This document shows positions 24,867 to 48,378 of a stretch of DNA of 64,000 nt, one piece after another. Position numbers and translations under genes: made by a program. Below the pieces are notes generated by a model. That model was not told the origin of the DNA. It was given only the letters and a program-made list of their open reading frames with translations, and did not search any database. The stretch lies in NCBI RefSeq assembly GCF_003014535.1, contig NZ_PYGD01000009.1, positions 62,001 through 126,000 on the forward strand, read 5' to 3'. Within the stretch, counting starts at the first letter, position 1; each line of letters opens with the position of its first letter. The stretch comes from Taibaiella chishuiensis (GTDB lineage Bacteria; Bacteroidota; Bacteroidia; Chitinophagales; Chitinophagaceae).

Positions 24867-26102
24867 TTAATTGACTGGGATATTGTATTTAAACTGTACC
24901 TGGAAATAACGGCGGTTTACATACTTGTTACCATCGTTCTTCAACAGGTTGCTCAATCCTTCGCGGTACATGAGGCCGGCCTGGATATTGGGCGTAATAT
25001 TGAATTCGGATTTGGTGGTCAGACCTACGTCGAAGGCGGGGAAGATCTTGGCGTTATCAGCAGCGAGCTGCACTTTTTCCGCACCATCGGTACGGCTCAG
25101 CATCTGCTGGAAGTCGCTGCCCACGCTCAGGGCGATATTCCTGTCGATCTGGTAGCCAATAGAGGGGTTTACCTGTACATAATAGAGGTTCTGGATCGGC
25201 TCTACCGCAGGCGAAGCCGGTAATTGGGCCGCCGATGGCCGGGCCAGTCCTTTGGCCGTAGCCGCGCCATTGTAGTTAACCACATTGGAGGTGTTGTTAT
25301 TATACATCATGGCCACGGTACCATCTACGAAAAAGTTACCTGCGATTTTTGTCCTTGCGCTCACGCCTACGGTATAACCGGTGTTGAGGTTACCGTAGTT
25401 TACGCCGCCACCCAGCGAGATACTGGTCTTGTTGGCTTTGGCGCCGCTGTTGAACGCCGATCGCGGGTTGTCGAAATTATCGGCATACGTAGGATAAGCC
25501 GGTTGCCTGTTTTCGTTCTTAGCGATAACCGGTGCGGCTTTAGGCTCCTTGTGTTCCGCGGGTACGGCAGCGGGCTGCTCCTGCGTTTTGGCGATATGCT
25601 CTTCAGCAGGGGCTTGCGGGGGCTGCTCCTGTGGTACAAGGCCTGGTGCCGGCGCAGGATTTGGCTGCGGCGTGTTGGGTACTGCCTGTTGGGGCAATGC
25701 CGGTTGTGGTTGCGATGAATTGCCGGTAAGTACCGGTGGCTGGGCTTGTTTGCCAGGCATAACAGGCGTGGTACCGGTTGTGCTTTGCTGTTCCGTTCCC
25801 GGAGCTGGTGCCGGCGCCTGTACGCCAGGCTGCCCGGACTGGGCCTTTTCCTGTGCCAGCGACGGGGCTTGCACAGGGGTGTTGTTTTTGTCCACCAGCT
25901 TCATATAGAATACAGCAGCCAGCACGAAGGCGGCAGCGGCAGCGATACCCGTTGCAATGGCCCACTTCTTACCCCGGTTTGCGGCGGGGGCAAGCGAAGG
26001 CGGCAACAGCTGGGACAAATGTTCCCAGTGCTTCGGGTCGTACTCCAGGTCCTCTTCCCCCAGCTTTTTTAAGAGCAATTCATCAAATTCGTTTTTGCTC
26101 AT
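24867..26102 (-). CDS. Trans-envelope protein: cytosolic tail, TM helix, Pro/Gln linker, outer-membrane-type beta-barrel
   Basis: 411 residues. Residues 1-46 are hydrophilic and charged (FDELLLKKLGEEDLEYDPKHW) and have no signal-peptide character. Residues 47-67 form one transmembrane helix (WAIATGIAAAAAFVLAAVFY). Residues about 70-200 are a Pro/Gln/Ala-rich, probably disordered linker. Residues about 210-411 show alternating amphipathic strands typical of an eight-stranded outer-membrane barrel, ending VNRRYFQVQFKYNIPVN. The start overlaps the end of the ECF sigma gene by 20 bases, so the two are translationally coupled. Paired with a sigma factor, the cytosolic tail is a plausible anti-sigma element (inference); no known anti-sigma domain is recognisable. 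The gene pair at 35774-38390 has the same plan. Confidence 0.82.
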   Translation of the reverse strand: MSKNEFDELLLKKLGEEDLEYDPKHWEHLSQLLPPSLAPAANRGKKWAIATGIAAAAAFVLAAVFYMKLVDKNNTPVQAPSLAQEKAQSGQPGVQAPAPAPGTEQQSTTGTTPVMPGKQAQPPVLTGNSSQPQPALPQQAVPNTPQPNPAPAPGLVPQEQPPQAPAEEHIAKTQEQPAAVPAEHKEPKAAPVIAKNENRQPAYPTYADNFDNPRSAFNSGAKANKTSISLGGGVNYGNLNTGYTVGVSARTKIAGNFFVDGTVAMMYNNNTSNVVNYNGAATAKGLARPSAAQLPASPAVEPIQNLYYVQVNPSIGYQIDRNIALSVGSDFQQMLSRTDGAEKVQLAADNAKIFPAFDVGLTTKSEFNITPNIQAGLMYREGLSNLLKNDGNKYVNRRYFQVQFKYNIPVN

Positions 26103-26667
26103 AACACTTAATTTCTGTAAACTGATTTGCTTTTATTTTTTGCTGCAGGTTTTTGCGGGCATTGTTGACATGCCATTGGGAAGTCCCTTCGCTCATATCC
26201 AGCAGCGCACCTATTTCTTTATGGGTATATCCTTCAAATACAAAAAGGTTAAACACGGTTCTGCTCATGGGAGGCAGGGTTTGTATAATACCGAGCAGGT
26301 CCTTCATGGCAATTTTATCTAATGCATTGTTCTCCACGCTGAATGTTGCGCTTTCTCCTATTTCATTCGGGAAATGCAGCTGCATGGCATTTTTCAGGTA
26401 TTTACTTTTCAGGTAGTCCAGGCAGGTGTTCACCACGATACGCCGCATCCATCCTTCAAACGATCCTTTGCCGCTGTAGTCGTTAATGTGGTTAAAAATC
26501 TTCAGAAAACCGTCCTGCATCAGCTGTTCCGCATCATGCATATCCTTTGCATAACGGGCACAGAGCTTCAGGAATAAACTGTAATATTTTTTATACAGAT
26601 ATTCCTGATGCATACGGTTGTTCCGCCGGCATCCCTCAATTATATCCAGTTCCGTGTATTCCGCCAT
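26083..26667 (-). CDS. ECF-type RNA polymerase sigma-70 factor
   Basis: 194 residues. Region sigma-2 lies at about 20-95 (YLYKKYYSLFLKLCARY, DAEQLMQDGFLKIFNHI, GSFEGWMRRIVVNTCLDYL) and region sigma-4 at about 125-180 (ALDKIAMKDLLGIIQTLPPM, FNLFVFEGYTHKEIGALLDM, EGTSQWHVNNARKNL). The S-E-G-T-S-Q/K-W-H-V motif in the recognition helix is also present in the second sigma factor at 37812-38390. It directs RNA polymerase to alternative promoters. Its gene overlaps that of a membrane protein likely to control it. Which genes it activates cannot be read from the window. Confidence 0.92.
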   Translation of the reverse strand: MAEYTELDIIEGCRRNNRMHQEYLYKKYYSLFLKLCARYAKDMHDAEQLMQDGFLKIFNHINDYSGKGSFEGWMRRIVVNTCLDYLKSKYLKNAMQLHFPNEIGESATFSVENNALDKIAMKDLLGIIQTLPPMSRTVFNLFVFEGYTHKEIGALLDMSEGTSQWHVNNARKNLQQKIKANQFTEIKCYEQKRI

Positions 26668-26794: not shown

Positions 26795-27790
26795 TTATTC
26801 ACGAATGTGGAAAACTACCCCTTCGGTACCCGCGGTCCAGAGACTGCCGTCGGGATGAAAGGCCAGGCAACGCAGGTCGGAGCCCGTAAAGGGTTTAAGC
26901 TCCATCCAGTGCAGGCCGCCATCTTCGGTTTTGAGTAAAAGACCTTTGTCGCCTGCTGCATACCCGGTATGGGCATCTTTGAACAGGATGGCCCGCAACC
27001 GGTACCGTTTCAGCAGCGGGTCGTCGCCGTTGCGCAGCCGCTGCCAGCTGGCGCCGCCATCCCGGGTACAGATAATGCTGCCGTTATAACCGGCAATCCA
27101 TACATGTTGCTCATCCAGTACGCATACCGATTTAAAATAATCGCCTCTAGCCTGCTGCAGTATCCAGGTACCGCCCCCATCGCTGGTTTTCAGTACGGCG
27201 CCGAACCCGCAGGCATAGCCTACGGCCGGCGAAGCGAAGCCGATAGCCGTAAGTTCGTATTCAAAACTATCGACGCTGAGGATATTGCCGGCGCCGTCGG
27301 TGCGGAGTATGCGGCCATTGTTATAAGCATTGCCCGCTACGATAAATCCTTTACCTGTTTCGGAGAAGGTGATATCCTGGAACCATTCCCACCAGCTGGT
27401 TTGTACATAACGCCAGGAGGCCATGCCGGCATCGTTTTTGATAAAAATTTTGCCATCGAAACCTACGCCATATATATTACCGTTGTTCGCCGCAAGACCG
27501 TAGATCGCTTTTTTGCCGTCGCCGTCCATATGGAACAGCGACCAGGTATTGCCGCCGTCTGTGGTATGCAGGATGTCGGACTGCTCGTAGCGCAGGCCGC
27601 CTACGATATAACCTTCGTCCTTACTGGTAAACAGGATTTTATTAAGATCAGCGGTAGAGGGTGTGGTTACCTGCGTTACGCGGGCGGTTTCGATCTGGTC
27701 CTTTTTGCAGGAAACGGCAAGCAGGCTCCATAAGCATAAACCTATGGCAGTAAAAAAATATCTTTTTTTATATGAAAATGAATAATGCAT
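26795..27790 (-). CDS. Ycf48/BNR-repeat beta-propeller lipoprotein
   Basis: 331 residues. The N-terminus has a lipoprotein signal with lipobox LAVSC (Cys28), followed by KKD. The body has four or more Asp-box motifs (TTDGGNTW, TSDGGGTW, TRDGGASW, TEDGGLHW) interleaved with x-G-Y-x-V/A-G strands, the pattern of Ycf48-like seven-bladed propellers. Ycf48 is a photosystem II assembly factor in phototrophs; in Bacteroidota these are surface or periplasmic propellers of unknown role, so the photosynthesis name should not be carried over. It is divergent from dnaX, with a 137-base interval between start codons. Confidence 0.85.
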   Translation of the reverse strand: MHYSFSYKKRYFFTAIGLCLWSLLAVSCKKDQIETARVTQVTTPSTADLNKILFTSKDEGYIVGGLRYEQSDILHTTDGGNTWSLFHMDGDGKKAIYGLAANNGNIYGVGFDGKIFIKNDAGMASWRYVQTSWWEWFQDITFSETGKGFIVAGNAYNNGRILRTDGAGNILSVDSFEYELTAIGFASPAVGYACGFGAVLKTSDGGGTWILQQARGDYFKSVCVLDEQHVWIAGYNGSIICTRDGGASWQRLRNGDDPLLKRYRLRAILFKDAHTGYAAGDKGLLLKTEDGGLHWMELKPFTGSDLRCLAFHPDGSLWTAGTEGVVFHIRE

Positions 27791-33729: not shown

Positions 33730-34425
33730 ATGGATCACAACGAATTTCGTAAATACGCAATCAAGCATCAGGGTATCAGCAGCAATACTTTTGATAGCTA
33801 TGCCAAGCATGTAAGTGCGCAGCCTATGGCGCTTACACCATACATTATAGAGGAACGTCCGATGAATGTGGCTTCTATGGATGTATTCAGCCGCCTGATG
33901 ATGGATCGTATCATCTTCCTGGGTGAGCCTATCAACGACTATGTCGCAAACATCGTTACGGCACAGCTGTTGTTCCTCGAAAGCACCGACCGTACCCGCG
34001 ACGTGCAGATGTACATCAACAGCCCCGGCGGTAGCGTGTATGCCGGCCTGGGCGTGTATGATACCATGCAGATCGTTAACCCCGATATCGCAACCATCTG
34101 TACCGGTATTGCCGCCAGTATGGCCGCCGTATTGATGTGCGCCGGTACCCATGGCAAACGTACCGCGCTGACCCACAGCCGTATTATGATGCACCAGCCC
34201 AGCAGCGGCATCGGCGGACAGGCTACTGATATCGGTATTACCGTAAACGAGATCAAAAGGGTAAAACATAACCTGTACAGCATTATCGCCGAGCATACCG
34301 GTCAGCCTATCGAAAAAGTAGAAACCGACAGCGACCGCGACTTCTGGCTGCTGGCCGAAGAAGCCAAGGCTTACGGTATCGTGGACGAAGTGCTGAAAAG
34401 CAATCCTAAAAAGGCTAAGAAATAA
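33730..34425 (+). CDS. clpP: ATP-dependent Clp protease proteolytic subunit, first copy
   Basis: 231 residues. This serine protease subunit forms two stacked heptamers and degrades proteins fed by ClpX, ClpA or ClpC. The catalytic triad is visible: Ser130 in TGIAASMAA, His155 in RIMMHQPSS and a likely Asp204 in DSDRDFW. The oxyanion segment NSPGGSVYAGLGVYDTM is intact. The N-terminus is longer than in E. coli ClpP (about 40 extra residues before the core), with no obvious propeptide processing motif. It is followed after 61 bases by a second clpP, a tandem arrangement known in several Bacteroidota that may give mixed ClpP1P2 tetradecamers. Confidence 0.94.
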   Translation: MDHNEFRKYAIKHQGISSNTFDSYAKHVSAQPMALTPYIIEERPMNVASMDVFSRLMMDRIIFLGEPINDYVANIVTAQLLFLESTDRTRDVQMYINSPGGSVYAGLGVYDTMQIVNPDIATICTGIAASMAAVLMCAGTHGKRTALTHSRIMMHQPSSGIGGQATDIGITVNEIKRVKHNLYSIIAEHTGQPIEKVETDSDRDFWLLAEEAKAYGIVDEVLKSNPKKAKK

Positions 34426-34486
34426 GTGCATGCCCTGCCCAGGACAGCCGGAATATTCACCTTTATATCAACCTAACAATAATAAT

Positions 34487-35134
34487 ATGAATCAATATAA
34501 TCTTGCCCAGCTGGGCTTGCTGAATAAAAGCGAAGACGAAGATGAAGAGGAAGAAAAACCCGTCATCGACAAGCCATCTCCGATGGGGATGATGGCCAAG
34601 AAGTCGGAAGAAATGTTCTTTAAAAACCGTACCGTATATCTCTGGGGACCGGTAGAGGACAAGTCGGCCAAGGACGTGGTTTCCAAACTGCTGTTGCTGG
34701 ACGCCGATAAGCCCGGTAAAGAAATCAAATTCTACATCAATAGCCCGGGTGGCGTGGTAACCAGCGGTATGGTGATCTATGATGTAATGCGTATGATCAA
34801 GTCGCCGGTATCTACCATCTGTATGGGACTGGCTGCCAGTATGGGTTCTATCCTGCTGGCCGGCGGCGAAAAAGGCAAACGTTTTATATTCCCGCACGGT
34901 GAGGTCATGATCCACCAACCGAGCCTGGGTGGCTACTTCCAGGGCGTATCTGCCGACCTGGAGATCCATGCTCACCAGATCCAGAAAACCAAAGAGCTGG
35001 GCGCCAAGATCCTTTCTGAGGCCTGCGGGCAGCCTTTCGAAAAAGTGCTGAAAGACCTGGAGCGCGACTACTGGATGGATGCCAACGATGCCCTGACTTA
35101 TGGTATCGTAGATAAAATCGTAGACAAACTGTAA
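34487..35134 (+). CDS. clpP: ATP-dependent Clp protease proteolytic subunit, second copy
   Basis: 215 residues from ATG at 34487 (MNQYNLAQLG). An upstream in-frame ATG at 34430 would overlap the linker and is less likely. An acidic segment (about 14-24, EDEDEEEEK) precedes the core, unusual for ClpP and absent in the first copy. The core keeps Ser118 in GLAASMGS, His143 in VMIHQPS, a likely Asp194 in LERDYW and NSPGGVVTSG. The two copies differ across the chain, so they are not recent duplicates. A strong terminator closes the clpP pair. Confidence 0.93.
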   Translation: MNQYNLAQLGLLNKSEDEDEEEEKPVIDKPSPMGMMAKKSEEMFFKNRTVYLWGPVEDKSAKDVVSKLLLLDADKPGKEIKFYINSPGGVVTSGMVIYDVMRMIKSPVSTICMGLAASMGSILLAGGEKGKRFIFPHGEVMIHQPSLGGYFQGVSADLEIHAHQIQKTKELGAKILSEACGQPFEKVLKDLERDYWMDANDALTYGIVDKIVDKL

Positions 35135-35773: not shown

Positions 35774-37804
35774 TTATCTTCTGTCCATGATGTACACCAC
35801 TTTTTCCTTCCGGCCAAAGTAGTAACCCAGCGAGAGTTGCAGAGAGGGCTGGCGGAACAGTTTGTTGATGCCTTCCGTACCTCCTTTGGCATTATCGAAG
35901 AGGATCTGCGTCATACGGGCATCTACCGATAACTTACGGGAGAAGTCGTAGCTCATACCCATGGCATAACCCAATCCAAACCGGGAGCCGAAGTCGTGTA
36001 CCTCGTCCAGTTGGCCAAACTTGTTCTGGTAAGGGTTTTTATCCTGGTCCACCTGGCTTTCTACAAAGTTGGTATTGGTACTGGTCCTCTTTTCCCAGCT
36101 TATCGGGAAAGCATAGGCCAGGTCGAGGCCGCCGAATACTGATACGCGGCCCAGGTTATAACTCATGGTTACCGGCATATGTATGCTGCCATAGCTATTG
36201 ACCTTGTATGAGGAGGTGTTAACCAGTTCCTTGCCTGAAAAGAGCCATCCGGCGCCATTCTGGGTTTTGCTTACCTCGTAGGATACGGATTGGTCCTGCA
36301 GGTTGTAGTTACTGAAATAATGGTTCATGTACTTCAACTCTGCTACCAGAGTCCAGCGTTCGCTGAGGGCGAGCAGGCCCGCTACGCCGATCTGCATACC
36401 AAAAGCGCCCGGGTTGCCAAATGAGCCGTTGCCGCCTACCATTACTGCAGCATAGAAGTTGCGGGAGCCGTCGAAGTAACCGGCTACGCCACCTGCCGTA
36501 TTCTGGATCAGCTTGTTGAAGGAGCTGGGATCTACGCTGCGGCTTGCCACTTTATAGTTGCTGAGCGGTACCAGGTTTACATGTTCGCGGGCTACCGTGC
36601 CGGCGCGTAATTTGGCCAGGGGCACCAGTTCTCTCACCGTAATGTTGACATTCAGTTTTTTCAGTTCTGCAATGTCGATTTTGGTCAGCGGTACATAACG
36701 TATGTTTTCGATACGGGTTACCGCTACGGTATCCGTAATCAGTTTGGGTGCTGTGTTCCTGGCGGCCTTGCCATGCGGGTATACATAACGTTCTACCAGG
36801 TCGATGCGTTTAAAGGTATCGCGTTGCTCTTTGTAGTAGTTGCCGTCGGGCGATTGTACAATTTTCTTGTTGTTCACTATCGCCTTGGTTTTCCAGGTCC
36901 ATGGCGTGGCACTGTTGTTGGTATTGCCGGCGCTGTTTGTCGTGTTTGTATTATCGCCCGCAGCCGTAGCGCCTTTGTCGCCGGTGGCGGAAGCCAGTGC
37001 AGTTGATGTGTTATTGTTATTATTGTTGTTACTGTTGTTACTGTTGTTGGTATTGTTGTCCTGGTGTTTAATCGTTTCCAGCACCTGTTGCTGTTTAACC
37101 ACGGTGGGTTTAACTGCGGCTATGGTGTTAGCCTGGTTGCCGGAGGCTGGGGTATTGCTGCCGTTGTTGCCTGCAGGCGCACCGGTATGGGACGCAACGG
37201 TTTGATGCGTTGGTTTTGCCTGCCGGGTTTTGTTCCGGGAAGCGGTTTGATCGCGGTTATCGGCAACTGCGCCGTTTTTGCGGGCTGCCGTGCCGGCTGT
37301 GGCATGCGTGGCCGAAGCTGCGGGGGTACCGCCGGCATGGCTCCTGCCTGTAGCCTGGCTTGCTGCCCCGCCTGTTTGTGTACCCGGACCGGCCTGCTGC
37401 TGCCCGCCGTGTGTGGCCTTAGCTTTGCCGGAATGGGTGGCAGGTGTGGTAGCGGCCAGTGTTGTTGCACGGTCGTTTTTGCTATTGCCGGAATACGGGT
37501 TATTGCCTCCGGTTGATGTATTAAGTGTACCCGCCGGTTGCGTGGCTTCGGTAAGCACCGCATCGGCTTTTTTGTCGCCGGTTACTTTCCAGTAAGCGGC
37601 TCCGCCGCCCAGCAACAGTAACGCAACTGCAGGGATGATATAACGACGAACAGACCTTCCTCCTGACACTACTCCTCCTACAGGCATTTCTGCATCCAAA
37701 AGGCCCTTCATGTTCAACCATGCGCCGGAGCCTTCGCGCTCCTCGCCGTTGCGTAAGTTCTTAAATACATCGTCAATATGGATGAAATCTTTGTTGGGAT
37801 CCAT
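35774..37804 (-). CDS. Trans-envelope protein: cytosolic tail, TM helix, Asn/Thr-rich linker, outer-membrane-type beta-barrel
   Basis: 676 residues. Residues 1-53 are hydrophilic (IDDVFKNLRNGEE, GAWLNMKGLLDAEM). A single transmembrane helix spans 54-73 (YIIPAVALLLLGGGAAYW). Residues about 80-310 are a low-complexity Ala/Gly/Thr/Asn/His linker containing an Asn/Ser run. A short conserved-looking segment follows (about 325-435) and then a C-terminal barrel (about 440-676) with strands such as NFYAAVMVGGNGSF, WTLVAELKYMNHYFS and LQLSLGYYFG. The plan matches the gene at 24867-26102, and again an ECF sigma gene lies immediately upstream (7 bases). A linker of about 230 residues could cross the periplasm. 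Role as sigma-controlling sensor is inference. Confidence 0.82.
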   Translation of the reverse strand: MDPNKDFIHIDDVFKNLRNGEEREGSGAWLNMKGLLDAEMPVGGVVSGGRSVRRYIIPAVALLLLGGGAAYWKVTGDKKADAVLTEATQPAGTLNTSTGGNNPYSGNSKNDRATTLAATTPATHSGKAKATHGGQQQAGPGTQTGGAASQATGRSHAGGTPAASATHATAGTAARKNGAVADNRDQTASRNKTRQAKPTHQTVASHTGAPAGNNGSNTPASGNQANTIAAVKPTVVKQQQVLETIKHQDNNTNNSNNSNNNNNNNTSTALASATGDKGATAAGDNTNTTNSAGNTNNSATPWTWKTKAIVNNKKIVQSPDGNYYKEQRDTFKRIDLVERYVYPHGKAARNTAPKLITDTVAVTRIENIRYVPLTKIDIAELKKLNVNITVRELVPLAKLRAGTVAREHVNLVPLSNYKVASRSVDPSSFNKLIQNTAGGVAGYFDGSRNFYAAVMVGGNGSFGNPGAFGMQIGVAGLLALSERWTLVAELKYMNHYFSNYNLQDQSVSYEVSKTQNGAGWLFSGKELVNTSSYKVNSYGSIHMPVTMSYNLGRVSVFGGLDLAYAFPISWEKRTSTNTNFVESQVDQDKNPYQNKFGQLDEVHDFGSRFGLGYAMGMSYDFSRKLSVDARMTQILFDNAKGGTEGINKLFRQPSLQLSLGYYFGRKEKVVYIMDRR
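37009..37059. repeat. Trinucleotide run encoding Asn/Ser
   Basis: About 17 units of gtt/att with act interruptions on the plus strand, coding for Asn and Ser on the minus strand inside the linker of the barrel protein. Slippage would change linker length without frameshift. Confidence 0.75.
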
Positions 37805-37811
37805 ACCGTAT

Positions 37812-38390
37812 TTATTTTTTTAAATGTAAATTTTGTTGTTCCACTTTTTCTTTTAGCATTCTCCTCGCTTCAGACACATGCCATTTGGATGTGCCTTCGC
37901 TGATTCCCAAGGTCTTGGCGATATGCTTATGGGGCATATCGTCAAGCACAAACATGTTGAATACCACACGCGTTGCCTCGGGTAATTCCTGTATCAGTTT
38001 CAGTAAATCGTTGTAATAAAGCTGATTAGCATGATCCTTGTGCACAAACTCATCTTTCTCCGCCAGTACGATGCTTTGTTTATACTTGATATTGGAAGAT
38101 GCATAATCGGCGATGGCATGGAAAATGATCCTGCGCAGCCAGCCTTCGAACGAACCCTTAAAGGAGAAGGTGCTCATTTTCTGGAAGGCGCGTAGAAAGC
38201 CATTGTTGAGTATCTCCTCCGCATTCACCTGCTCGGGAAAATACCGTTTAACCATACTCATCATCCGGGGGTAGAAAAGGTGATATATCTTCGCCTGGGC
38301 GCTTCGCTCGTTGCGAATGCACCCTTCTATAAGCTCCTGAAGTTCATCAGTTTTTACTGAGACGTTGTTATATGCCAATGCTACGGACAA
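37812..38390 (-). CDS. ECF-type RNA polymerase sigma-70 factor, probable TTG start
   Basis: 192 residues. Sigma-2 lies at about 25-95 (AKIYHLFYPRMMSMVKRYFP, NAEEILNNGFLRAFQKM, GSFEGWLRRIIFHAIADY) and sigma-4 at about 125-185 (LLKLIQELPEATRVVFNMFV, DDMPHKHIAKTLGISEG, TSKWHVSEARRMLKEKV). No ATG lies in frame before Met43 and Met44, which are inside sigma-2, so initiation must use TTG at 38390 or the TTG four codons on. It shares layout and the S-E-G-T-S-x-W-H-V motif with the sigma factor at 26083-26667. The membrane protein gene follows after seven bases. Confidence 0.9.
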   Translation of the reverse strand: MSVALAYNNVSVKTDELQELIEGCIRNERSAQAKIYHLFYPRMMSMVKRYFPEQVNAEEILNNGFLRAFQKMSTFSFKGSFEGWLRRIIFHAIADYASSNIKYKQSIVLAEKDEFVHKDHANQLYYNDLLKLIQELPEATRVVFNMFVLDDMPHKHIAKTLGISEGTSKWHVSEARRMLKEKVEQQNLHLKK

Positions 38391-40855: not shown

Positions 40856-43800
40856 ATGAAACCAACCTTATCCCGTGTCAACAACCCGGCGTTGCCCAAG
40901 GTATGCCTGTTACTCTTTGCCCTGCTTACGGGCGTTGCCCTTGCCCGGGGCCAGTCGGTTATCAGTACGGCCTCTTCGCTGAGTAACAATGAGACCGTTG
41001 CGACTGTTACCCTCAATTTTCAGAACACCAATGCATTCCCCGTTGTGATTACCGATATCTCGGGTGTACTAACGGACTACGGTAGCCAGACCGTATCGCT
41101 ATGGTATAAGAACTCGGCGGTAAACGGTGTGCCGGGTCCGATTGATGCAACCAATGGCTGGACCTTGAATGGCAGCACCAGTGTTAATAGTTACGGCAAC
41201 AGTACCACTACGGCCACCCAGCCTTTTTTCCAGGGCATCAGCCTTACGGTGCCGGGTAATACGACCTACGGACTGGCTATCCTGGGCATGTCCTCGGTGG
41301 GCACTTTGCGCGTAGGGGTACTTACTGCGCCCATTACGGTCTCGGCGGATGGTTGCAGTATTCATACCGGGCCTGCTATAGGTTTTGGCGGTGCATCGGC
41401 GCCTCCGGCTGCCCCTGCTATTGCTTCCCGCGGTTGGATCGGCAGTATTAAATTTATGCCGGCCGCATCCTGTACGGGTAGTCCCGTTGCCGCAGTGGTT
41501 ACGGGCCTGGGCAGTATTTGCTCCGGCACTGCCTTTACCTTATCTGCCAGCGGGTATACAACAGCCGCAGGCGTTACGCACCAATGGCAGTATTATAACG
41601 TTGCCGCTGCCCTCTGGAGCGATATCGCCGGCGCCACAGGGCCGGAGCTTGTTGTTGCTTCCGGGATCACGGCGGCTACACAATACCGTATGGTGTCGAC
41701 CTGTGTTGCTTCTGGTCTGCAGGGCATTTCCAATGCTTTTACTATGGGGATCGGCGCAGGCCTGGCTGCCGGTACTTATACCATCAACAAAAATCAACCT
41801 GCTTCGGCAACCAATTTTGTTTCTTTTGCTGCTGCCACTGCTGCTTTGGGCTGTGGTATAACGGGGCCTGTAGTGCTCGACGTGACGCCGGGATCGGGGC
41901 CATATACAGAGATGCTGCGCGTTGGGAACATACCGGGAGCCAGCGCCGTCAACACCGTTAAGATAAACGGCAATGGTAACCGGGTACAGTACTATAACGT
42001 GTATGACATGGAAAATCTGCAACTGCTGAGGCTTACCGGTGCGAAATACGTGAAAATAGATAGCCTCACGTTCAAAACCCTGTCCCCATTGGAAGGTTGC
42101 GGGGCCTTGTTCACCGGTGGCTGCGCCTACGACAGTCTTACCCGTTGTTTTTTTGATATGACTTCGATCACCGGAAATACCGGTCCGACCGGTTTAACCA
42201 ATTCAAACGGTATTATGTTTTCGTCCTCACCTATAATGGCTGGTGCTATAGGCGAAAATGGCCGGAATTGTTATATTGGTTATAACCATGTTAAAGGCCC
42301 GGCTGTAAACGGAGGTCCCTTTTATGGCATCAGCTTAGGATACAGTGTGAGCGACAGCAATAACGTAATTGCGCATAACGAGGTGGAAAACTTTGCCTAT
42401 TTAGGTATCCATGCAAATAGTTCCCGTAATGTGAAGATCCTGTACAATAATATTCACCGGAGTACAAAAGTTACTGATAACTATTTTTACGGCATCAATA
42501 CCGGCTTTTATTCTAATTACCTAAACTATAATATGCCTTCCCGGGTTGAGGTTATCGGTAACCGTATCCATAATCCATCGGCCGGTAATACGTTTAGCGG
42601 AACATTCTATGGCATCGGGACAGGTAACGGGACCTGGTGGAGTGACACGCTACATAATGATACCATAATTATCGCCAATAACGCGATCTATAATATTGCG
42701 TCCGAATCTGCGGCACAATGTTGGGGCATCTTTTTGGGTAACGGGAATTCAACCAGCCACTATATCTATCATAATACGGTTGCTATTAGCGGTAGTGCCG
42801 GCAATACCGGCATCAGACGGGGTATATGGTTGAATAATTATTCCCCGTTGGGTAATGATACCAATACGGTTCAGCTTAAAAACAACCTGGTAACCGTTAC
42901 CGGCGGTACACCGGGAACAACGTATGGTTTTCTCTACAACTATTTTAACGGGGCTGTAAGCTGGAACGTTAATGCGCAACGCAATAACTTCTATGTGGGC
43001 GCCCCCGCGGCGGGGCAGTTCTATGGTGGCCGGCAGAGTGTCGATTATCCAACAATGGCCGCTTACCAGGCGGCGTTCCCTACCCAGGAAGTAGGGTCGT
43101 TGAGCGTAGATCCGCAATATCTTGCCCCGGCTGCCGGCGACCTGACACCCCAAAACATAAGCCTGCAGGGCAATGGGGTCAATCTCCTGTCTGTAGTACC
43201 TTTGGATATTAATGGCAGGGCGCGTTCTGCTACGCCTACACCCGGCGCTTTCGAGTTCTCGACCGATGCCGGGGTTACCGCCTTGAATGCGCCAGTGGGC
43301 CCGTTCTGCAGCAGCCTCAAGCAGGTTAAGGTAACGATCGCTAACCTGGGGCTTAATGTAATCAATACCGTGCAGGTTAACTGGTCGCTGAATGGCATAC
43401 TGCAAACACCAGTATCCTACAGCGGTACGCTGGCAGTAGCAGGCAACCCCGGCAGTACGGCCGTCGTTACCCTGGGCAACGGTTTGTTCCTGCCCAACAG
43501 CATCACCGAGCTTAAGGCCTGGACCAGTATGCCCAATGGTTTTCCCGACGGGATCAACGATAACGATACGCTGGTAACCCTGCTACAGCCATCCAGCAGC
43601 CTGTCGGTAAATCTCGGTCCCGATGCGGCTATCTGCACCGGTACTACCTACCAGCTTAATGCGGGTTTTGCCGGCGCCACCTATCTCTGGGATAATGGCG
43701 CTGTTACACAGACCCGCAATGTGGCAACGGCGGGCGCCTATTATGTAAAAGTTACCGGGGCCAATGGTTGTATCGGTATGGATACCTTCCAACTGAGCCT

Positions 43801-44542
43801 GCGGCCCCTGCCCCTGGTCGACCTGGGCCCCGACCAGGCCATCTGCTACGGTACCACCACTACGCTCGACCCCGGTAATATAGGCCTGGCCTACCTCTGG
43901 GATGATGGCTCCACGAACCAGTCCCGTACCGTGGATACTTCAGGCATTTATACCGTGGATGTAACTGATGTTTTCGGTTGCGTGGGTACCGACGATGTGA
44001 CGGTGGTGCTGAAAGATATACCACGGGTAGACGGGATCAATGCTGTTTACGGCGATACGGCTACCTACACCTTTAACCCGATCAATCCTTTATTTGTCCT
44101 GAATTATACCTGGAATTTCGGCGATGGTTCGCCGCTTAAAACCGGGGCCGTGGTACAACACCGCTACGCCGTAAACGGCATCTATACCGTAGACCTTATG
44201 GTGGAAGGGGAATGTACCGGTTTGATCCGCCACCAGTCCCGGACCGTAGATGTGTTTGATGCCGGTGGCGGCACCGGGCTGGCGGTGCTCGACGATCCCG
44301 GCGGCATCCTGGTCTATCCGAACCCGGCCAGGGGCTGGCTGACGGTGACGGTGAAAGGCGGGCTAAAGATCCGGTCGGTGACGGCGATGAATATGCTCGG
44401 GCAAAAAGTATACCAACAGGAAGCGGATAAGAGGAGCAGCCTGGTACTGCCCACTTCGGGACTTGCCGCCGGTATATACACCTTGAAAATAGAAACCGAT
44501 CAAGGCATACGCAGCCGTAAATTCGAGGTAAGATATCCTTAA
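40856..44542 (+). CDS. Large T9SS protein with right-handed beta-helix, Ig-like and PKD domains, first paralogue
   Basis: 1228 residues with a signal peptide (core VCLLLFALLTGVALARG, to about residue 33). The order is: N-terminal beta domain (35-195); an Ig-like segment (about 205-300); a parallel beta-helix region (about 310-700: VVLDVTPGSGPYTE, VKINGNGNRV, then repeated I-x-x-N-x-I and N-N-I/V turns); a CARDB-like domain (about 810-905); two short repeats each with L-G-P-D-x-A-I-C and Y-L-W-D-x-G; a PKD domain with WNFGDGSP; and a T9SS type A sorting domain (about 1150-1228: VYPNPARGWLTVTVKGG). Beta-helix domains in secreted proteins often bind or cleave polysaccharides; no catalytic residues could be assigned. 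A paralogue follows directly. Confidence 0.88.
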   Translation: MKPTLSRVNNPALPKVCLLLFALLTGVALARGQSVISTASSLSNNETVATVTLNFQNTNAFPVVITDISGVLTDYGSQTVSLWYKNSAVNGVPGPIDATNGWTLNGSTSVNSYGNSTTTATQPFFQGISLTVPGNTTYGLAILGMSSVGTLRVGVLTAPITVSADGCSIHTGPAIGFGGASAPPAAPAIASRGWIGSIKFMPAASCTGSPVAAVVTGLGSICSGTAFTLSASGYTTAAGVTHQWQYYNVAAALWSDIAGATGPELVVASGITAATQYRMVSTCVASGLQGISNAFTMGIGAGLAAGTYTINKNQPASATNFVSFAAATAALGCGITGPVVLDVTPGSGPYTEMLRVGNIPGASAVNTVKINGNGNRVQYYNVYDMENLQLLRLTGAKYVKIDSLTFKTLSPLEGCGALFTGGCAYDSLTRCFFDMTSITGNTGPTGLTNSNGIMFSSSPIMAGAIGENGRNCYIGYNHVKGPAVNGGPFYGISLGYSVSDSNNVIAHNEVENFAYLGIHANSSRNVKILYNNIHRSTKVTDNYFYGINTGFYSNYLNYNMPSRVEVIGNRIHNPSAGNTFSGTFYGIGTGNGTWWSDTLHNDTIIIANNAIYNIASESAAQCWGIFLGNGNSTSHYIYHNTVAISGSAGNTGIRRGIWLNNYSPLGNDTNTVQLKNNLVTVTGGTPGTTYGFLYNYFNGAVSWNVNAQRNNFYVGAPAAGQFYGGRQSVDYPTMAAYQAAFPTQEVGSLSVDPQYLAPAAGDLTPQNISLQGNGVNLLSVVPLDINGRARSATPTPGAFEFSTDAGVTALNAPVGPFCSSLKQVKVTIANLGLNVINTVQVNWSLNGILQTPVSYSGTLAVAGNPGSTAVVTLGNGLFLPNSITELKAWTSMPNGFPDGINDNDTLVTLLQPSSSLSVNLGPDAAICTGTTYQLNAGFAGATYLWDNGAVTQTRNVATAGAYYVKVTGANGCIGMDTFQLSLRPLPLVDLGPDQAICYGTTTTLDPGNIGLAYLWDDGSTNQSRTVDTSGIYTVDVTDVFGCVGTDDVTVVLKDIPRVDGINAVYGDTATYTFNPINPLFVLNYTWNFGDGSPLKTGAVVQHRYAVNGIYTVDLMVEGECTGLIRHQSRTVDVFDAGGGTGLAVLDDPGGILVYPNPARGWLTVTVKGGLKIRSVTAMNMLGQKVYQQEADKRSSLVLPTSGLAAGIYTLKIETDQGIRSRKFEVRYP

Positions 44543-44724: not shown

Positions 44725-47700
44725 ATGCAAAAAGCCAATCGATTATTCCTGCTCTTCCTGCTGGCAATATGCCCGCTGGCGATGCGGGCACAGACCGCCT
44801 ATTTCACCGATGGCACCGCCCAAACTCCGACCCCTGATTATGGACCTGTATACCGCAGTTCTGCAGCCTCTTCCGATGATCTGAGCCGCTACGCTTACCT
44901 CTATACCGAGGCAGAGCTGGCGGCCAAAGGCATTCTGCCGGGAGCTACCATTACCCAGCTGGGTTGGGTAAAGAACAATACGGCAGCTACCACGGGTGGC
45001 GGTGTTTTCAGGATTTTTATGAAAAACTCGCTGACTGCCGCTTATGCCCCTTTCGACGCTTCCTGGGCCGGTCTGAAAGGCGGGACCTCGCTGGTATATG
45101 AAAACCTGAACCAGAGCATACCTGCTACCGTAACGCCCAACTATGTCACCTTTGCGCTAAGCGCCCCCGGATTTGTCTATACCGGCGGATCGTTGGAGAT
45201 CCTTACTGAATGGGATATCAGCCAGGTAAGCGGCAATCCCACCACAGGCGCTTTCAACTGGATGTTGTCGCTCGTAGATCAACGCACCTACGGGCGCAAC
45301 GGCAACAACCCGGCCAATCTTACTACCGTGGGAAGAACGGTTACCGGCCGGCGGCCTTACCTGATGATGAGCTATACGCCCGGCCTTGCCTGTTCGGGAA
45401 CGCCTGTAGCCGGTATTGCCACGATCAACAAGACCTCCGACTCGGTATGCCCCCTGGCCCCGCTCGTGCTTGGGCTAACCGGCAGCGGTGCCAATACAGG
45501 ACTTACTTACGAATGGGAAAGTTCGCCCACCGACAACCCCTTTACGCCTACGAGTATCAGCACTGCCTCCCCGGTGGCATCGCTGGGTATTACCGCCTCC
45601 TTGAACACCACCTGGTACCGGGCAAAAGTGCGCTGTAACAATGGCACCCCGGCCTACTCCGTTCCGCTGCTGCTGCCGGTTGTTGCGGGGCTCCCCGCTG
45701 GTAATTATACGATCAATAAAAGCCTGCCTACAGGCGGTGCCAATTTTACTTCGTTTAAGGATGCCCTCATCGCCCTGGATTGCGGTATTACCGGTCCTGT
45801 GGTTTTTGACGTCGTACCCAACCCGGCTCCCTACGAAGAGCCCGTATTTTTTTCGGAAATACGGGGCGCCTCGGCGGTAAATACGGTAAAGATTAATGGA
45901 CATGGTGCTTTCCTGTACTATTATACAGGCATTATCTCGCGCCAGGTACTTACCTTGTCCGGTACCAAATACCTGAAAATTGACAGCCTGAATATAACCT
46001 GCGGCGGCATGAATTTCGGTACTTCCGGCTGGGCAGCGCTCATCACCAATGGCGCGGCCTACGACAGTATTACCAATTGTGTCATTAACGTAAACAATAG
46101 CGGACCCCTGGGCAGCAATATCAACGGTATCTGTTTCAGTGCCTCGAATACTTCGCCCACCGTAGCAGGGAACAACGGATCGCATATCTACCTGGGTGGA
46201 AACCGGATAAGGGGAATCACGCTTGAAGGTGGTCCTGAGTATGCGATTACCATTTGCGGGGCATCAGACAGCAATACCATTGCAAACAATATCCTGGAGA
46301 ATTTCGCATCAACCGGTATCTATATCGACGGGGCTACCGGTACAAAAGTGCTGAACAACGAGCTGCACCGGAAAACGAAAACCAATGTTCCCGATTTCTA
46401 TGGTATACGTACTGCAGGCATTGCGCCAGGTACGATTGTTACCGGTAACCGGATACATAGCCCGGGCGGTACGCTTATAAATTTTGGCGGTAGTGTCTAC
46501 GGCATTTATGCCGCCGGTAAAGGAACGCCGGCCAACAGGAACCTGTATGCCAACAATGCCATCTATAATATTAACCAGGGAGGAGTTATATACGGTATCC
46601 ACGCGCCTGCCGCGACGCAGTCCGATTTTATACATAATACCGTCGATATCGCGGTGCCCATAAACGCATGGCCTACGGGCTTTGTGCGGGGTATTTCCGT
46701 TTCGGGAACGAATACCGGTATCCAGGTACGCAACAATATAGTATCCATAACCGGGGGCAACAACGGGGCCAAGTATGGCTTCTACTACGACCTGGCTACT
46801 GCCGTTGCCGATGCGGGGCGCAATAACTTTTATGTCAACTCCACGCAGCCGGGTGCTCAATCCTATGGTTATTACACCACGGCCTATGCCACCATGGCTG
46901 CTTTCCAGGCTGCTTACCCGGCGCTGGAAGTGGGCTCTTTAAGCCAGGCGCCGCAGTACGCCAATGTCACGGGCGGTAACTTTCTGCCGCTTAACGGCAA
47001 TCTTTATAACAACGGCCTCAACATGCAGACCCTGGTACCCACAGATATCAACGGGATTGCAAGACCTGCAGCACCCACGCCAGGCGCTTTCCAGGTGTCC
47101 TCTTCGCAAATCAACAATGCCGGCGCCCTGGCGCTGATCCAGCCCTCCGGCTCCTTCTGCAGCGGCCCGAGGCCGGTTAAGGCAGCCATCGTTAACGCAG
47201 GCATCAATACCCTGAATACCGTGGAGGTGCACTGGATGGTGAACGGGGTAACGCAGCCTGTGCTCAGTTATACCACGCCCATTCCCGGTATGGGCAGCAG
47301 CGACAATGTGGATACGGTAGATCTTGGTACTGCCGTATTCCCTGCGGGCGTACTCTCGGTGGTTAAAATATGGACGGCTATGCCCAATGGTCAGCCCGAC
47401 GGCCTTACCGCCAACGATACGCTTACCGTTTCGGTGCAACCCGTTTACAGCATAATGCCAGGACTGGGCAATGATACCGCGATATGTGCGGGCGATACAC
47501 TGGCGTTAAATGCCGGTAACCCCGGAGGCAGCTATCTGTGGAGCGATGGCAGTACGGGCCAGGGTATAGCGGTGACTGCCGCGGGCACGTACTTTGTTAC
47601 CGTTACTGCCGCCAATGGCTGTGTGGGCTCCGATACGCTGCATCTTACCGTTACACCGCTACCCCTGGTGAACCTGGGCAATGATACGGTCATATGTCCC

Positions 47701-48378
47701 GGCACAGCATTGGTGCTGGATGCCGGTAACCCGGGGGCGGCCTACCTCTGGAACGATGGCAGCACAGGTCAGACCCTTACGGTATCGGCCGGGGCAACCT
47801 ATAGCGTGGCCGTAACGGCAGATGCTTGTACCGGCGTCGATTCCATTACCGTATCGCTGACCAGCCTGCCTGTAGCCGACAGTATTAACGCGGTTTACAA
47901 CAGCGCGGCGACTTATACCTTCACGGTATACAATCCGCAGTTTGCACATACGTACACCTGGAACTTCGGCGACGGCACGCCGGTGGCAACGGGCGTGTCG
48001 GTAGCCCATACCTACACCGCTAATGGTACTTACGTCGTTACCCTGTCTATGGACGGCGACTGCAGCGACACCACCGTTACCATGAGCCTAAGCCTGGTGG
48101 TATCCGATGCGGTTACCGGTATCGAAGACCGTTATGCGGCCGGCGATTGGCTGCTGTATCCTAATCCTGCTAAAAATTTCCTGTTGTTGGAAAGTAAGTC
48201 GGGAGCAGCCTTTAAACAGGTTGAGATATTTACGGCCACCGGGCAGCGGGTATTCCATATGGCTACAGGCAAGAGCCGGTTACGTATCGGGACTGCCGGC
48301 TGGGCGCCGGGCGTTTACCTGCTTAAGGTCGGTGCTGCCGATGGCCCGGCTATGCGCAGGTTCGAGATCCTGAAATAA
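44725..48378 (+). CDS. Large T9SS protein with beta-helix, Ig-like and PKD domains, second paralogue
   Basis: 1217 residues with signal peptide MQKANRLFLLFLLAICPLAM. The N-terminal domain (about 24-225: YTEAELAAKGILPGATITQL, GRRPYLMMSYTPG) differs from that of the first paralogue. From about residue 225 on the order is the same: Ig-like, beta-helix (TINKSLPTGGANFTSFKDAL, GPVVFDVVPNPAPYEE), CARDB-like, two L-G-N-D-T-x-I-C repeats with Y-L-W-x-D-G-S-T-G-Q, PKD (WNFGDGTPVATG) and a type A sorting domain (WLLYPNPAKNFLLLESKSG). The pair thus arose by duplication with exchange or loss at the N-terminus. It has its own promoter and terminator, so the two can be expressed independently. Confidence 0.88.
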   Translation: MQKANRLFLLFLLAICPLAMRAQTAYFTDGTAQTPTPDYGPVYRSSAASSDDLSRYAYLYTEAELAAKGILPGATITQLGWVKNNTAATTGGGVFRIFMKNSLTAAYAPFDASWAGLKGGTSLVYENLNQSIPATVTPNYVTFALSAPGFVYTGGSLEILTEWDISQVSGNPTTGAFNWMLSLVDQRTYGRNGNNPANLTTVGRTVTGRRPYLMMSYTPGLACSGTPVAGIATINKTSDSVCPLAPLVLGLTGSGANTGLTYEWESSPTDNPFTPTSISTASPVASLGITASLNTTWYRAKVRCNNGTPAYSVPLLLPVVAGLPAGNYTINKSLPTGGANFTSFKDALIALDCGITGPVVFDVVPNPAPYEEPVFFSEIRGASAVNTVKINGHGAFLYYYTGIISRQVLTLSGTKYLKIDSLNITCGGMNFGTSGWAALITNGAAYDSITNCVINVNNSGPLGSNINGICFSASNTSPTVAGNNGSHIYLGGNRIRGITLEGGPEYAITICGASDSNTIANNILENFASTGIYIDGATGTKVLNNELHRKTKTNVPDFYGIRTAGIAPGTIVTGNRIHSPGGTLINFGGSVYGIYAAGKGTPANRNLYANNAIYNINQGGVIYGIHAPAATQSDFIHNTVDIAVPINAWPTGFVRGISVSGTNTGIQVRNNIVSITGGNNGAKYGFYYDLATAVADAGRNNFYVNSTQPGAQSYGYYTTAYATMAAFQAAYPALEVGSLSQAPQYANVTGGNFLPLNGNLYNNGLNMQTLVPTDINGIARPAAPTPGAFQVSSSQINNAGALALIQPSGSFCSGPRPVKAAIVNAGINTLNTVEVHWMVNGVTQPVLSYTTPIPGMGSSDNVDTVDLGTAVFPAGVLSVVKIWTAMPNGQPDGLTANDTLTVSVQPVYSIMPGLGNDTAICAGDTLALNAGNPGGSYLWSDGSTGQGIAVTAAGTYFVTVTAANGCVGSDTLHLTVTPLPLVNLGNDTVICPGTALVLDAGNPGAAYLWNDGSTGQTLTVSAGATYSVAVTADACTGVDSITVSLTSLPVADSINAVYNSAATYTFTVYNPQFAHTYTWNFGDGTPVATGVSVAHTYTANGTYVVTLSMDGDCSDTTVTMSLSLVVSDAVTGIEDRYAAGDWLLYPNPAKNFLLLESKSGAAFKQVEIFTATGQRVFHMATGKSRLRIGTAGWAPGVYLLKVGAADGPAMRRFEILK

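Follow-up and report, generated by a model that had tools for sequence, protein, structure and literature searches.

Two Sigma Factor Gene Pairs in the Window

The window analyzed in this work, a stretch of 64,000 nucleotides from a contig of Taibaiella chishuiensis (Bacteroidota), harbors two gene pairs on its minus strand, each made up of a gene for an extracytoplasmic function (ECF) sigma factor and, downstream of it, a gene for a partner protein whose single chain is predicted to run from the cytosol to the outer membrane. In pair 1, the sigma factor (194 residues; positions 26083–26667) matches Pfam Sigma70_r2 (1.3e-16) and Sigma70_r4_2 (1.4e-10), and its gene shares 20 nucleotides (26083–26102) with that of the 411-residue partner (24867–26102); the coordinates, the strand and this overlap are exactly those given by a first-pass annotation made from the sequence alone. 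The layout, the AlphaFold2 model, the Foldseek matches and the composition of the partner point to a trans-envelope anti-sigma factor of the Dma/Reo type.

The pair 1 partner begins with a putative cytosolic tail of 46 residues (25965–26102), containing nine acidic and seven basic residues, in which AlphaFold2 places two short helices (residues 3–16 and 23–32); Trp26 is unchanged across 38 aligned partners, that of the window counted. The tail is followed by a transmembrane (TM) helix (residues 47–65 by hydropathy, 25908–25964; residues 45–72 in the AlphaFold2 model), by a disordered tether rich in Pro, Gln and Ala (residues 73–221; 25440–25886; 20% Pro, 13% Gln, the three residues together 50%) and by an eight-stranded beta-barrel of the outer-membrane type (residues 222–411; 24870–25439). 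The first-pass annotation had described the same tail, single helix, Pro/Gln linker and barrel, and only its estimate of about 130 residues for the linker has to be changed, the tether being 149 residues long. The AlphaFold2 model, computed from an alignment of 38 sequences, shows eight strands within residues 226–410, with a block-mean predicted local distance difference test (pLDDT) score reaching 96, and no secondary structure in residues 73–225; averaged over the whole model, the pLDDT is 62, the tether scoring low. A Foldseek search retrieved 35 matches at E ≤ 0.001, the top solved structures being designed barrels, OmpA, Ail and OmpX; the template modelling scores (by target length) of the first twelve matches range from 0.44 to 0.70, except for a full-length OmpA model (0.26). 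The sole Pfam match of this protein at E ≤ 1 is Autotransporter (0.057), that is, Pfam by itself misses the barrel.

Pair 2 shows the same order of parts, in agreement with the first-pass proposal of a second, diverged pair at 35774–38390, although the AlphaFold2 model on which this order partly relies is of low confidence (mean pLDDT 48.8, from an alignment of six sequences) and the tether is of a different composition. Its sigma factor (37812–38390; Sigma70_r4_2 5e-13, Sigma70_r2 5.7e-10) has 192 residues if read from a TTG codon, and its true start may lie downstream of this codon. A gap of seven nucleotides separates it from the gene of the 676-residue partner (35774–37804), which is assigned to the Dma/Reo type on the basis of its layout, its AlphaFold2 model, its conservation in the genus and a match with the Pfam family OMP_b-brl_2 (2.1e-05; 25.1 bits, slightly below the curated cut-off of 27). 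The tail (residues 1–55; 37640–37804) has predicted helices at residues 10–20 and 28–38 and a Trp residue, Trp29, unchanged in the six aligned sequences; it is followed by a TM helix (residues 56–74 by hydropathy, 37583–37639; residues 50–75 in the AlphaFold2 model), a disordered tether of 228 residues (76–303; 36896–37579), rich in Thr, Asn, Ser and Gly rather than in Pro and Gln, a beta-rich stretch modelled with low confidence (residues 304–413; 36566–36895) and, with lower confidence than in pair 1, an eight-stranded barrel (residues 450–663; 35816–36457).

According to these predictions, each sigma factor is paired with a single chain that has a helix in the inner membrane, a barrel of the outer-membrane type and, between them, a tether whose length suffices to cross the periplasm, which supports the plan proposed by the first-pass annotation. 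No Pfam or NCBIfam match to a FecR domain was found at E ≤ 1 in either partner of the window, and no Pfam anti-sigma domain at E ≤ 1 in the window proteins.

Conservation and Distribution of the Gene Pairs

Both partner proteins were found in all three of the other searched genomes of the genus (pair 1 with 49–55% identity), and it is this conservation that argues against a chance arrangement of either pair. In these three genomes the two partner genes lie on one contig, about 14–19 kb apart (about 10 kb in the window). Outside the genus, the pair 1 barrel was retrieved at E ≤ 1e-5 from one of the 20 searched genomes from other genera of the family, and none of the 15 searched genomes from the other families of the order matched the pair 1 protein.

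The T. chishuiensis genome contains 28 places matching Sigma70_r2, five of which are sigma factors of the class under study, namely those of the two window pairs, L012, L015 and L011/L184 (31–38% identity to the first when aligned). Their partners differ: that of L012 has a barrel-like end, that of L015 (231 residues) lacks one, and that of L011/L184 consists of 903 residues. The five sequences were used to build a profile, which was run against 296 genomes of the phylum; 295 of them matched at E ≤ 1e-15, a permissive threshold at which other ECF sigma factors are included too. Outside Bacteroides, 165 sigma open reading frames (ORFs), 155 without duplicates, were collected from the best-scoring among the matches listed and from other locus searches; two were dropped (one scoring below 150 bits, one without a downstream ORF), leaving 153 pairs with sigma scores above 150 bits, which lean toward the sigma factors of the window because of the way they were drawn. 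A scan by species name gave at least 592 pattern matches and 440 relatives, of which the best 80 loci were kept, nearly all labelled as Bacteroides or another of the Bacteroidales and none labelled as B. thetaiotaomicron; 79 were analyzed, the remaining one being partnerless at a contig end. Two loci with odd downstream ORFs (L073 and L107, probably a wrong frame or a neighbor) were retained in the counts.

Among the ORFs with a start from −90 to +150 nucleotides around the sigma stop codon, the longest was taken as the partner; its closeness to the sigma gene is thus partly built in, but the overlap is not. Within these limits, 139 of the 153 partners outside Bacteroides begin at most 30 nucleotides from the sigma stop, and the two genes overlap in 103 of the 153 pairs and in 78 of the 79 from the named scan. 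The pairing of the two genes is conserved in relatives, and a TM helix lies within the first 200 residues in 223 of the 232 partners.

A Distinct Clade of Sigma Factors

A maximum-likelihood tree of 62 sigma factors separated 44 having tail-plus-TM partners from 18 other ECF sigma factors of the T. chishuiensis genome by a branch with 100/100 support, present in 100% of 200 bootstrap trees; several branches outside the clade are long. The 44 sequences, which include both sigma factors of the window and five from named Bacteroidaceae records, were hand-picked (38 from the surveyed pairs and six from a separate locus set). The 18 represent the 23 other Sigma70_r2 places of the genome after the exclusion of L001, L002 and L004, which look primary-type by eye, and of L021 and L026, which carry long extra domains.

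Several of the other ECF sigma factors of this genome have, by eye, FecR-like partners. At a further locus (L200, genome G266), a sigma-like ORF with a terminal hydrophobic stretch overlaps by four nucleotides a second ORF resembling a linker plus barrel, an arrangement that looks by eye like a chain of the Dma3 type, in which a sigma domain is part of the protein, split in two.

A Short Module Shared by the Partner Tails

The tails were compared by means of a model seeded with Bacteroides tails and grown on the remaining partners once the window's genus and locus L033 had been left out. Its consensus is IDDLFREKLEDAEMPPSDGFWEKLEADL, and it covers 183 of the 222 training partners. Positive matches were obtained for 224 of the 232 partners versus 25 of 232 shuffled ones, and scores above five bits for 211 versus none, most of the partners belonging to the training set; a Trp residue is present in 227 of the 232 tails. 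As a control, the 17 partners of the other ECF sigma factors of the T. chishuiensis genome score at most 3.5 bits.

Among the held-out proteins, the pair 1 tail reached 7.4 bits, versus a maximum of 6.6 over 500 shuffles of the same tail; seven of the 11, pair 1 among them, score above every one of the 500 shuffles of the respective tail, and the other four are reached by one to three shuffles. In the window itself, the pair 1 partner ranks first of 74 ORFs with 6.4 bits (runner-up 2.8). These scores suggest that the pair 1 tail is probably related to the tails of the Bacteroides anti-sigma factors. The membership of pair 2 is instead based on its layout, on the two predicted helices with a central Trp and on the position of its sigma factor in the tree.

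A narrower model, built from Bacteroides tails alone, was tried and set aside for the window, since neither tail was recognized by it, with E-values of 14 (pair 1) and 1.2 (pair 2); overall it found 53 of 154 partners at E ≤ 1, versus one of 154 when shuffled. Of the two window tails, the broadened model recognized that of pair 1 only. An iterated search with whole proteins also linked those of the window's genus with those of Bacteroides with tiny E-values, and was discounted as evidence because TM and low-complexity sequence can drive such a link.

Two or more segments matching the model occur in 26 partners, versus one of 232 shuffled sequences. By eye, 11 of them are true tandem copies (L032, L039, L054, L064, L070, L076, L083, L122, L133, L144 and L149), and the remaining 15 look like a single module split by an insertion. 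The tandem modules precede the TM helix; the highest number is four, in L054, and two are present in L032, which is directly orthologous to the pair 1 partner.

Covariation Between Tail and Sigma Factor

A mean-field coupling analysis was carried out on 224 tail–sigma pairs (effective number 134), with 109 within-clade re-pairings as the null. The mean of the top 10 couplings was 1.27 versus a null maximum of 1.18, and that of the top 20 was 1.19 versus 1.06; none of the 109 re-pairings reached either value, and two smaller runs of 15 re-pairings agree. Of the 20 strongest couplings, 10 involve sigma columns 50–80, which correspond roughly to regions 2.1–2.3 as read from the consensus; the null gives 4.9 on average and 9 at most, and this range was chosen with the list in view. 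Eight others sit beyond it, in the linker or in region 4. Across the family, these sequence data lend moderate support to a putative contact between the tail and the sigma factor.

Proposed Function and Alternative Explanations

The first-pass annotation knew of no described mechanism for a protein of this kind, a statement that does not hold, since anti-sigma factors named Reo and Dma have been published for Bacteroides and Phocaeicola (PMC9308784, PMC13114119, PMC13088901). The parts of the window proteins fit the published Dma plan, and for this reason we regard the two pairs as new members of the Reo/Dma kind. Two toxins are relevant here, BcpT and Bd-A, the latter of which we take to be bacteroidetocin A. 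The excerpted text of the 2022 paper describes an anti-sigma factor of P. vulgatus that, by prediction, crosses the periplasm and ends in a C-terminal outer-membrane barrel, together with a similar pair in B. fragilis; there, the pair is induced by BcpT, Bd-A is stated to bind and inhibit BamA, and strains that keep the sigma factor without a functional anti-sigma factor gain protection from the toxin, whereas strains lacking both do not (PMC9308784). In the parts available of a 2026 paper, the pair is named EcfO-Reo, Reo is said to span five compartments, induction is reported with either BcpT or Bd-A, and outer-membrane stress is proposed as the signal (PMC13114119). A second paper of 2026, from the Journal of Bacteriology, defines Dma in its excerpted text as an N-terminal sigma-binding domain, a TM helix, a disordered tether and a C-terminal barrel, encoded adjacent to an ECF21 sigma factor (PMC13088901). 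Derepression of a regulon and altered vesicles on loss of the anti-sigma factor are reportedly further traits of this kind of protein. In the accessible passages, the phenotypes of anti-sigma loss require the partner sigma factor (PMC9308784, PMC13088901).

On these grounds, we consider it quite probable that the window pairs work in the Reo/Dma manner, with the tail retaining the sigma factor at the inner membrane and stress on the outer membrane, sensed through the barrel, setting it free. The two-helix tail would bind the sigma factor, probably at region 2, where the latter meets RNA polymerase, and would mask this region; the bound tail would keep the sigma factor at the inner membrane, with the TM helix as the anchor of the chain, the disordered tether would cross the periplasm and the barrel would sit in the outer membrane. 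Outer-membrane damage or failed assembly of the barrel would change the barrel or lead to loss of the full chain, ending the hold. Proteolysis is a likely candidate for the release step, and the freed sigma factor would turn on envelope-protective genes. By analogy with P. vulgatus, stress on the outer membrane or on barrel assembly is the most likely signal; it is favored because EcfO-Reo, in the excerpts cited above, answers two toxins, one of which (Bd-A) inhibits BamA.

Some observations weigh against this interpretation. The held-out pair 2 tail scores only 0.9 bits, a value equalled by two of 500 shuffles, and its protein is sixth of the 74 window ORFs (0.5 bits). In the coupling analysis, the single strongest coupling lies within chance, being reached by 28 of the 109 re-pairings; moreover, the interval of columns was selected only after the list had been seen, and kinship inside the clades was controlled only in part. 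When barrel profiles from the window's genus and from Bacteroides were compared, the match covered only 22 columns (probability 27%, E 7e-4) and was rejected as a sign of homology; because of this short alignment, the heads of the two groups may be of separate origin. Many partners of the same clade show no visible barrel, so that a barrel is not required for this type of sigma control. Finally, no shared promoter was seen 5' of sigma 1 in the window and four related genomes.

The main alternative assigns to the barrel the role of a surface receptor, whose loops would bind one particular molecule from outside the cell, for example a glycan, and thereby trigger the release. The strong divergence of the barrel sequences among paralogues and lineages is what would be expected of receptors, and the authors of the Dma work favor glycan sensing for Dma2 in the available part of their text (PMC13088901); on the other side, the induction of EcfO-Reo by two different antibacterial toxins hints at a general stress signal, and no ligand is named in the excerpts of the Reo/Dma literature at our disposal. 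We hold this explanation to be possible, yet clearly weaker than release by outer-membrane stress. The length of the tethers, which varies between the pairs (149 and 228 disordered residues), and the predicted anchoring of both ends in membranes would also suit a ruler or tension sensor reporting the distance between the membranes or shear. At 0.34 nm per residue, however, even the shorter tether could extend up to about 50 nm; the usual periplasm is narrower, and the tether should therefore be slack, which makes a ruler improbable.

The least probable explanation, and in our opinion a very improbable one, is that of an ordinary outer-membrane protein with a cleaved or uncleaved N-terminal signal, next to a sigma factor controlled in some other way. 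Such a signal is the usual export route of barrel proteins, and the binding of the sigma factor by the tail is deduced from sequences and models. Nevertheless, the charged N-terminal region of 46 residues, the tail module, the covariation and the conservation of the pairs all speak against it, as do the Reo/Dma genetics reported in the excerpts cited above.

Genes Surrounding the Two Pairs

The gene at 26795–27790, immediately 5' of sigma 1 and likewise on the minus strand, is lipoprotein-like and contains, by eye, repeats resembling those of propellers; it is a possible target or operon partner of this sigma factor. Two neighboring clpP-like genes (33730–34425 and 34430–35134, plus strand, by eye) lie between the pairs, and two adjacent genes at 40856–44542 and 44725–48378 (plus strand) code for similar, very large secreted proteins with apparent type IX sorting tails (by eye).

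Other Heads on the Tail and Transmembrane Unit

Clustering of the C-terminal ends of 158 partners (the 153 pairs and the five named Bacteroidaceae) yielded a largest cluster of 75, including the pair 1 protein and all five Bacteroidaceae; the pair 2 protein falls in a cluster of three, 24 short proteins form a cluster of their own, another cluster, with 15 members, is rich in plug-like ends, and the rest are smaller clusters or, in 15 cases, singletons. Such clusters can chain, because single linkage was used and the stretches can include linker; since the ends cluster apart, the barrel is only one of several heads. The 903-residue partner in the T. chishuiensis genome (L184:859–3567) is an example of another one, carrying a tail, a TM helix, CarboxypepD_reg, a SusC-type Plug, vWF_A/VWA and YfbK_C.

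In one genus, seven of 30 genomes (the discovery genome counted) encode a chain running from the tail and TM helix through Plug and VWA to a type IX sorting domain (L186:835–3147 in G246, and L288–L293); all seven have a sigma gene of this class upstream, and the sorting domain was checked with Pfam in three (L186, L288 and L291). Four further genomes of that genus share only the first 314–317 residues, L297 having a YfbK-type head (Pfam) and L296 and L298 ending alike, and two more share the head only, with neither a tail nor a sigma gene seen upstream. This chain represents a possible second route by which a single protein could reach from the cytosol to the cell surface.

A bolder reading, possible but less likely than not, is that the real unit is a portable, sigma-holding module of about 28 residues centered on Trp, joined to a TM helix and fused to varied sensor heads that report on export and assembly routes. 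The heads would be the barrel, SusC-type plugs, either alone or with VWA, and a plug-VWA combination with a type IX sorting domain; each sensor would be a client of its own outer-membrane route, failed assembly would release the sigma factor, and the number of sigma factors per sensor would be set by repeated modules, of which as many as four were seen in tandem. No title or abstract dealing with tandem tail modules or with anti-sigma factors of this clade carrying type IX sorting tails was found in the literature searched, a weak negative given that subscription papers lie mostly outside its coverage; the closest report, in the text available, concerns PorA, a protein of Porphyromonas gingivalis that has a sorting domain and affects signaling to the sigma factor SigP (PMC7712824).

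Comparison with Known Systems

In cell-surface signaling of the FecR type, an ECF sigma factor is under membrane-anchored control by an event at the outer membrane. Unlike these systems, which have a FecR domain, the window pairs come without a separate gene for a TonB-dependent receptor, and their sigma factors fall in a clade apart from the other ECF sigma factors of the genome.

In class I anti-sigma factors, according to the excerpted text of PMC7406223, the main contact is with the parts of the sigma factor that bind the RNA polymerase clamp, regions 2.1 and 2.2; half of the top 20 couplings lie near these regions, in the area contacted by helix 4 of class I (RseA-like) domains. Class II (CnrY-like) domains are short, with two helices wrapped on the sigma factor; the 46-residue tail of pair 1 has two short helices in the AlphaFold2 model. 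The source on class I regards anti-sigma domains shorter than 50 residues as possible divergent members of class II. It also states that a class I domain is found near only 6% of the Bacteroidetes ECF sigma factors, and suggests broken synteny or other anti-sigma classes as the reason (PMC7406223). A concrete candidate for an anti-sigma class of this sort is the short tail module, through which the question can be tested.

The four parts of Dma are predicted in both window pairs. The 2024 PNAS paper on Dma1 reportedly named, together with the Journal of Bacteriology paper, the Dma family and these parts. Compared by description with the excerpted accounts of Dma1, Dma2 and Dma3 of B. thetaiotaomicron (the Das/Dma systems), the window pairs differ from Dma3, which carries its sigma domain within its own chain, their sigma factors being separate proteins (PMC13088901). 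The resemblance to EcfO/Reo of B. fragilis and P. vulgatus, as far as the published excerpts describe them, concerns the succession of an ECF sigma gene and a gene for a predicted chain with a cytosolic part, a TM helix, a periplasm-spanning stretch and a barrel; the sigma factors of the Bacteroides pairs share one clade with those of the window, and the pair 1 tail is probably related to theirs, whereas the barrels are barely similar and the window tethers are longer. The surveyed Bacteroides loci (L201–L280) would correspond to the ecfO-reo genes, as judged from layout and ubiquity rather than from locus tags. With the two window pairs, the Reo/Dma kind, a type of bacterial stress sensor described only recently, gains new members in another lineage of Bacteroidota and takes its place within a wider clade of sigma factors whose partners have a tail in common.

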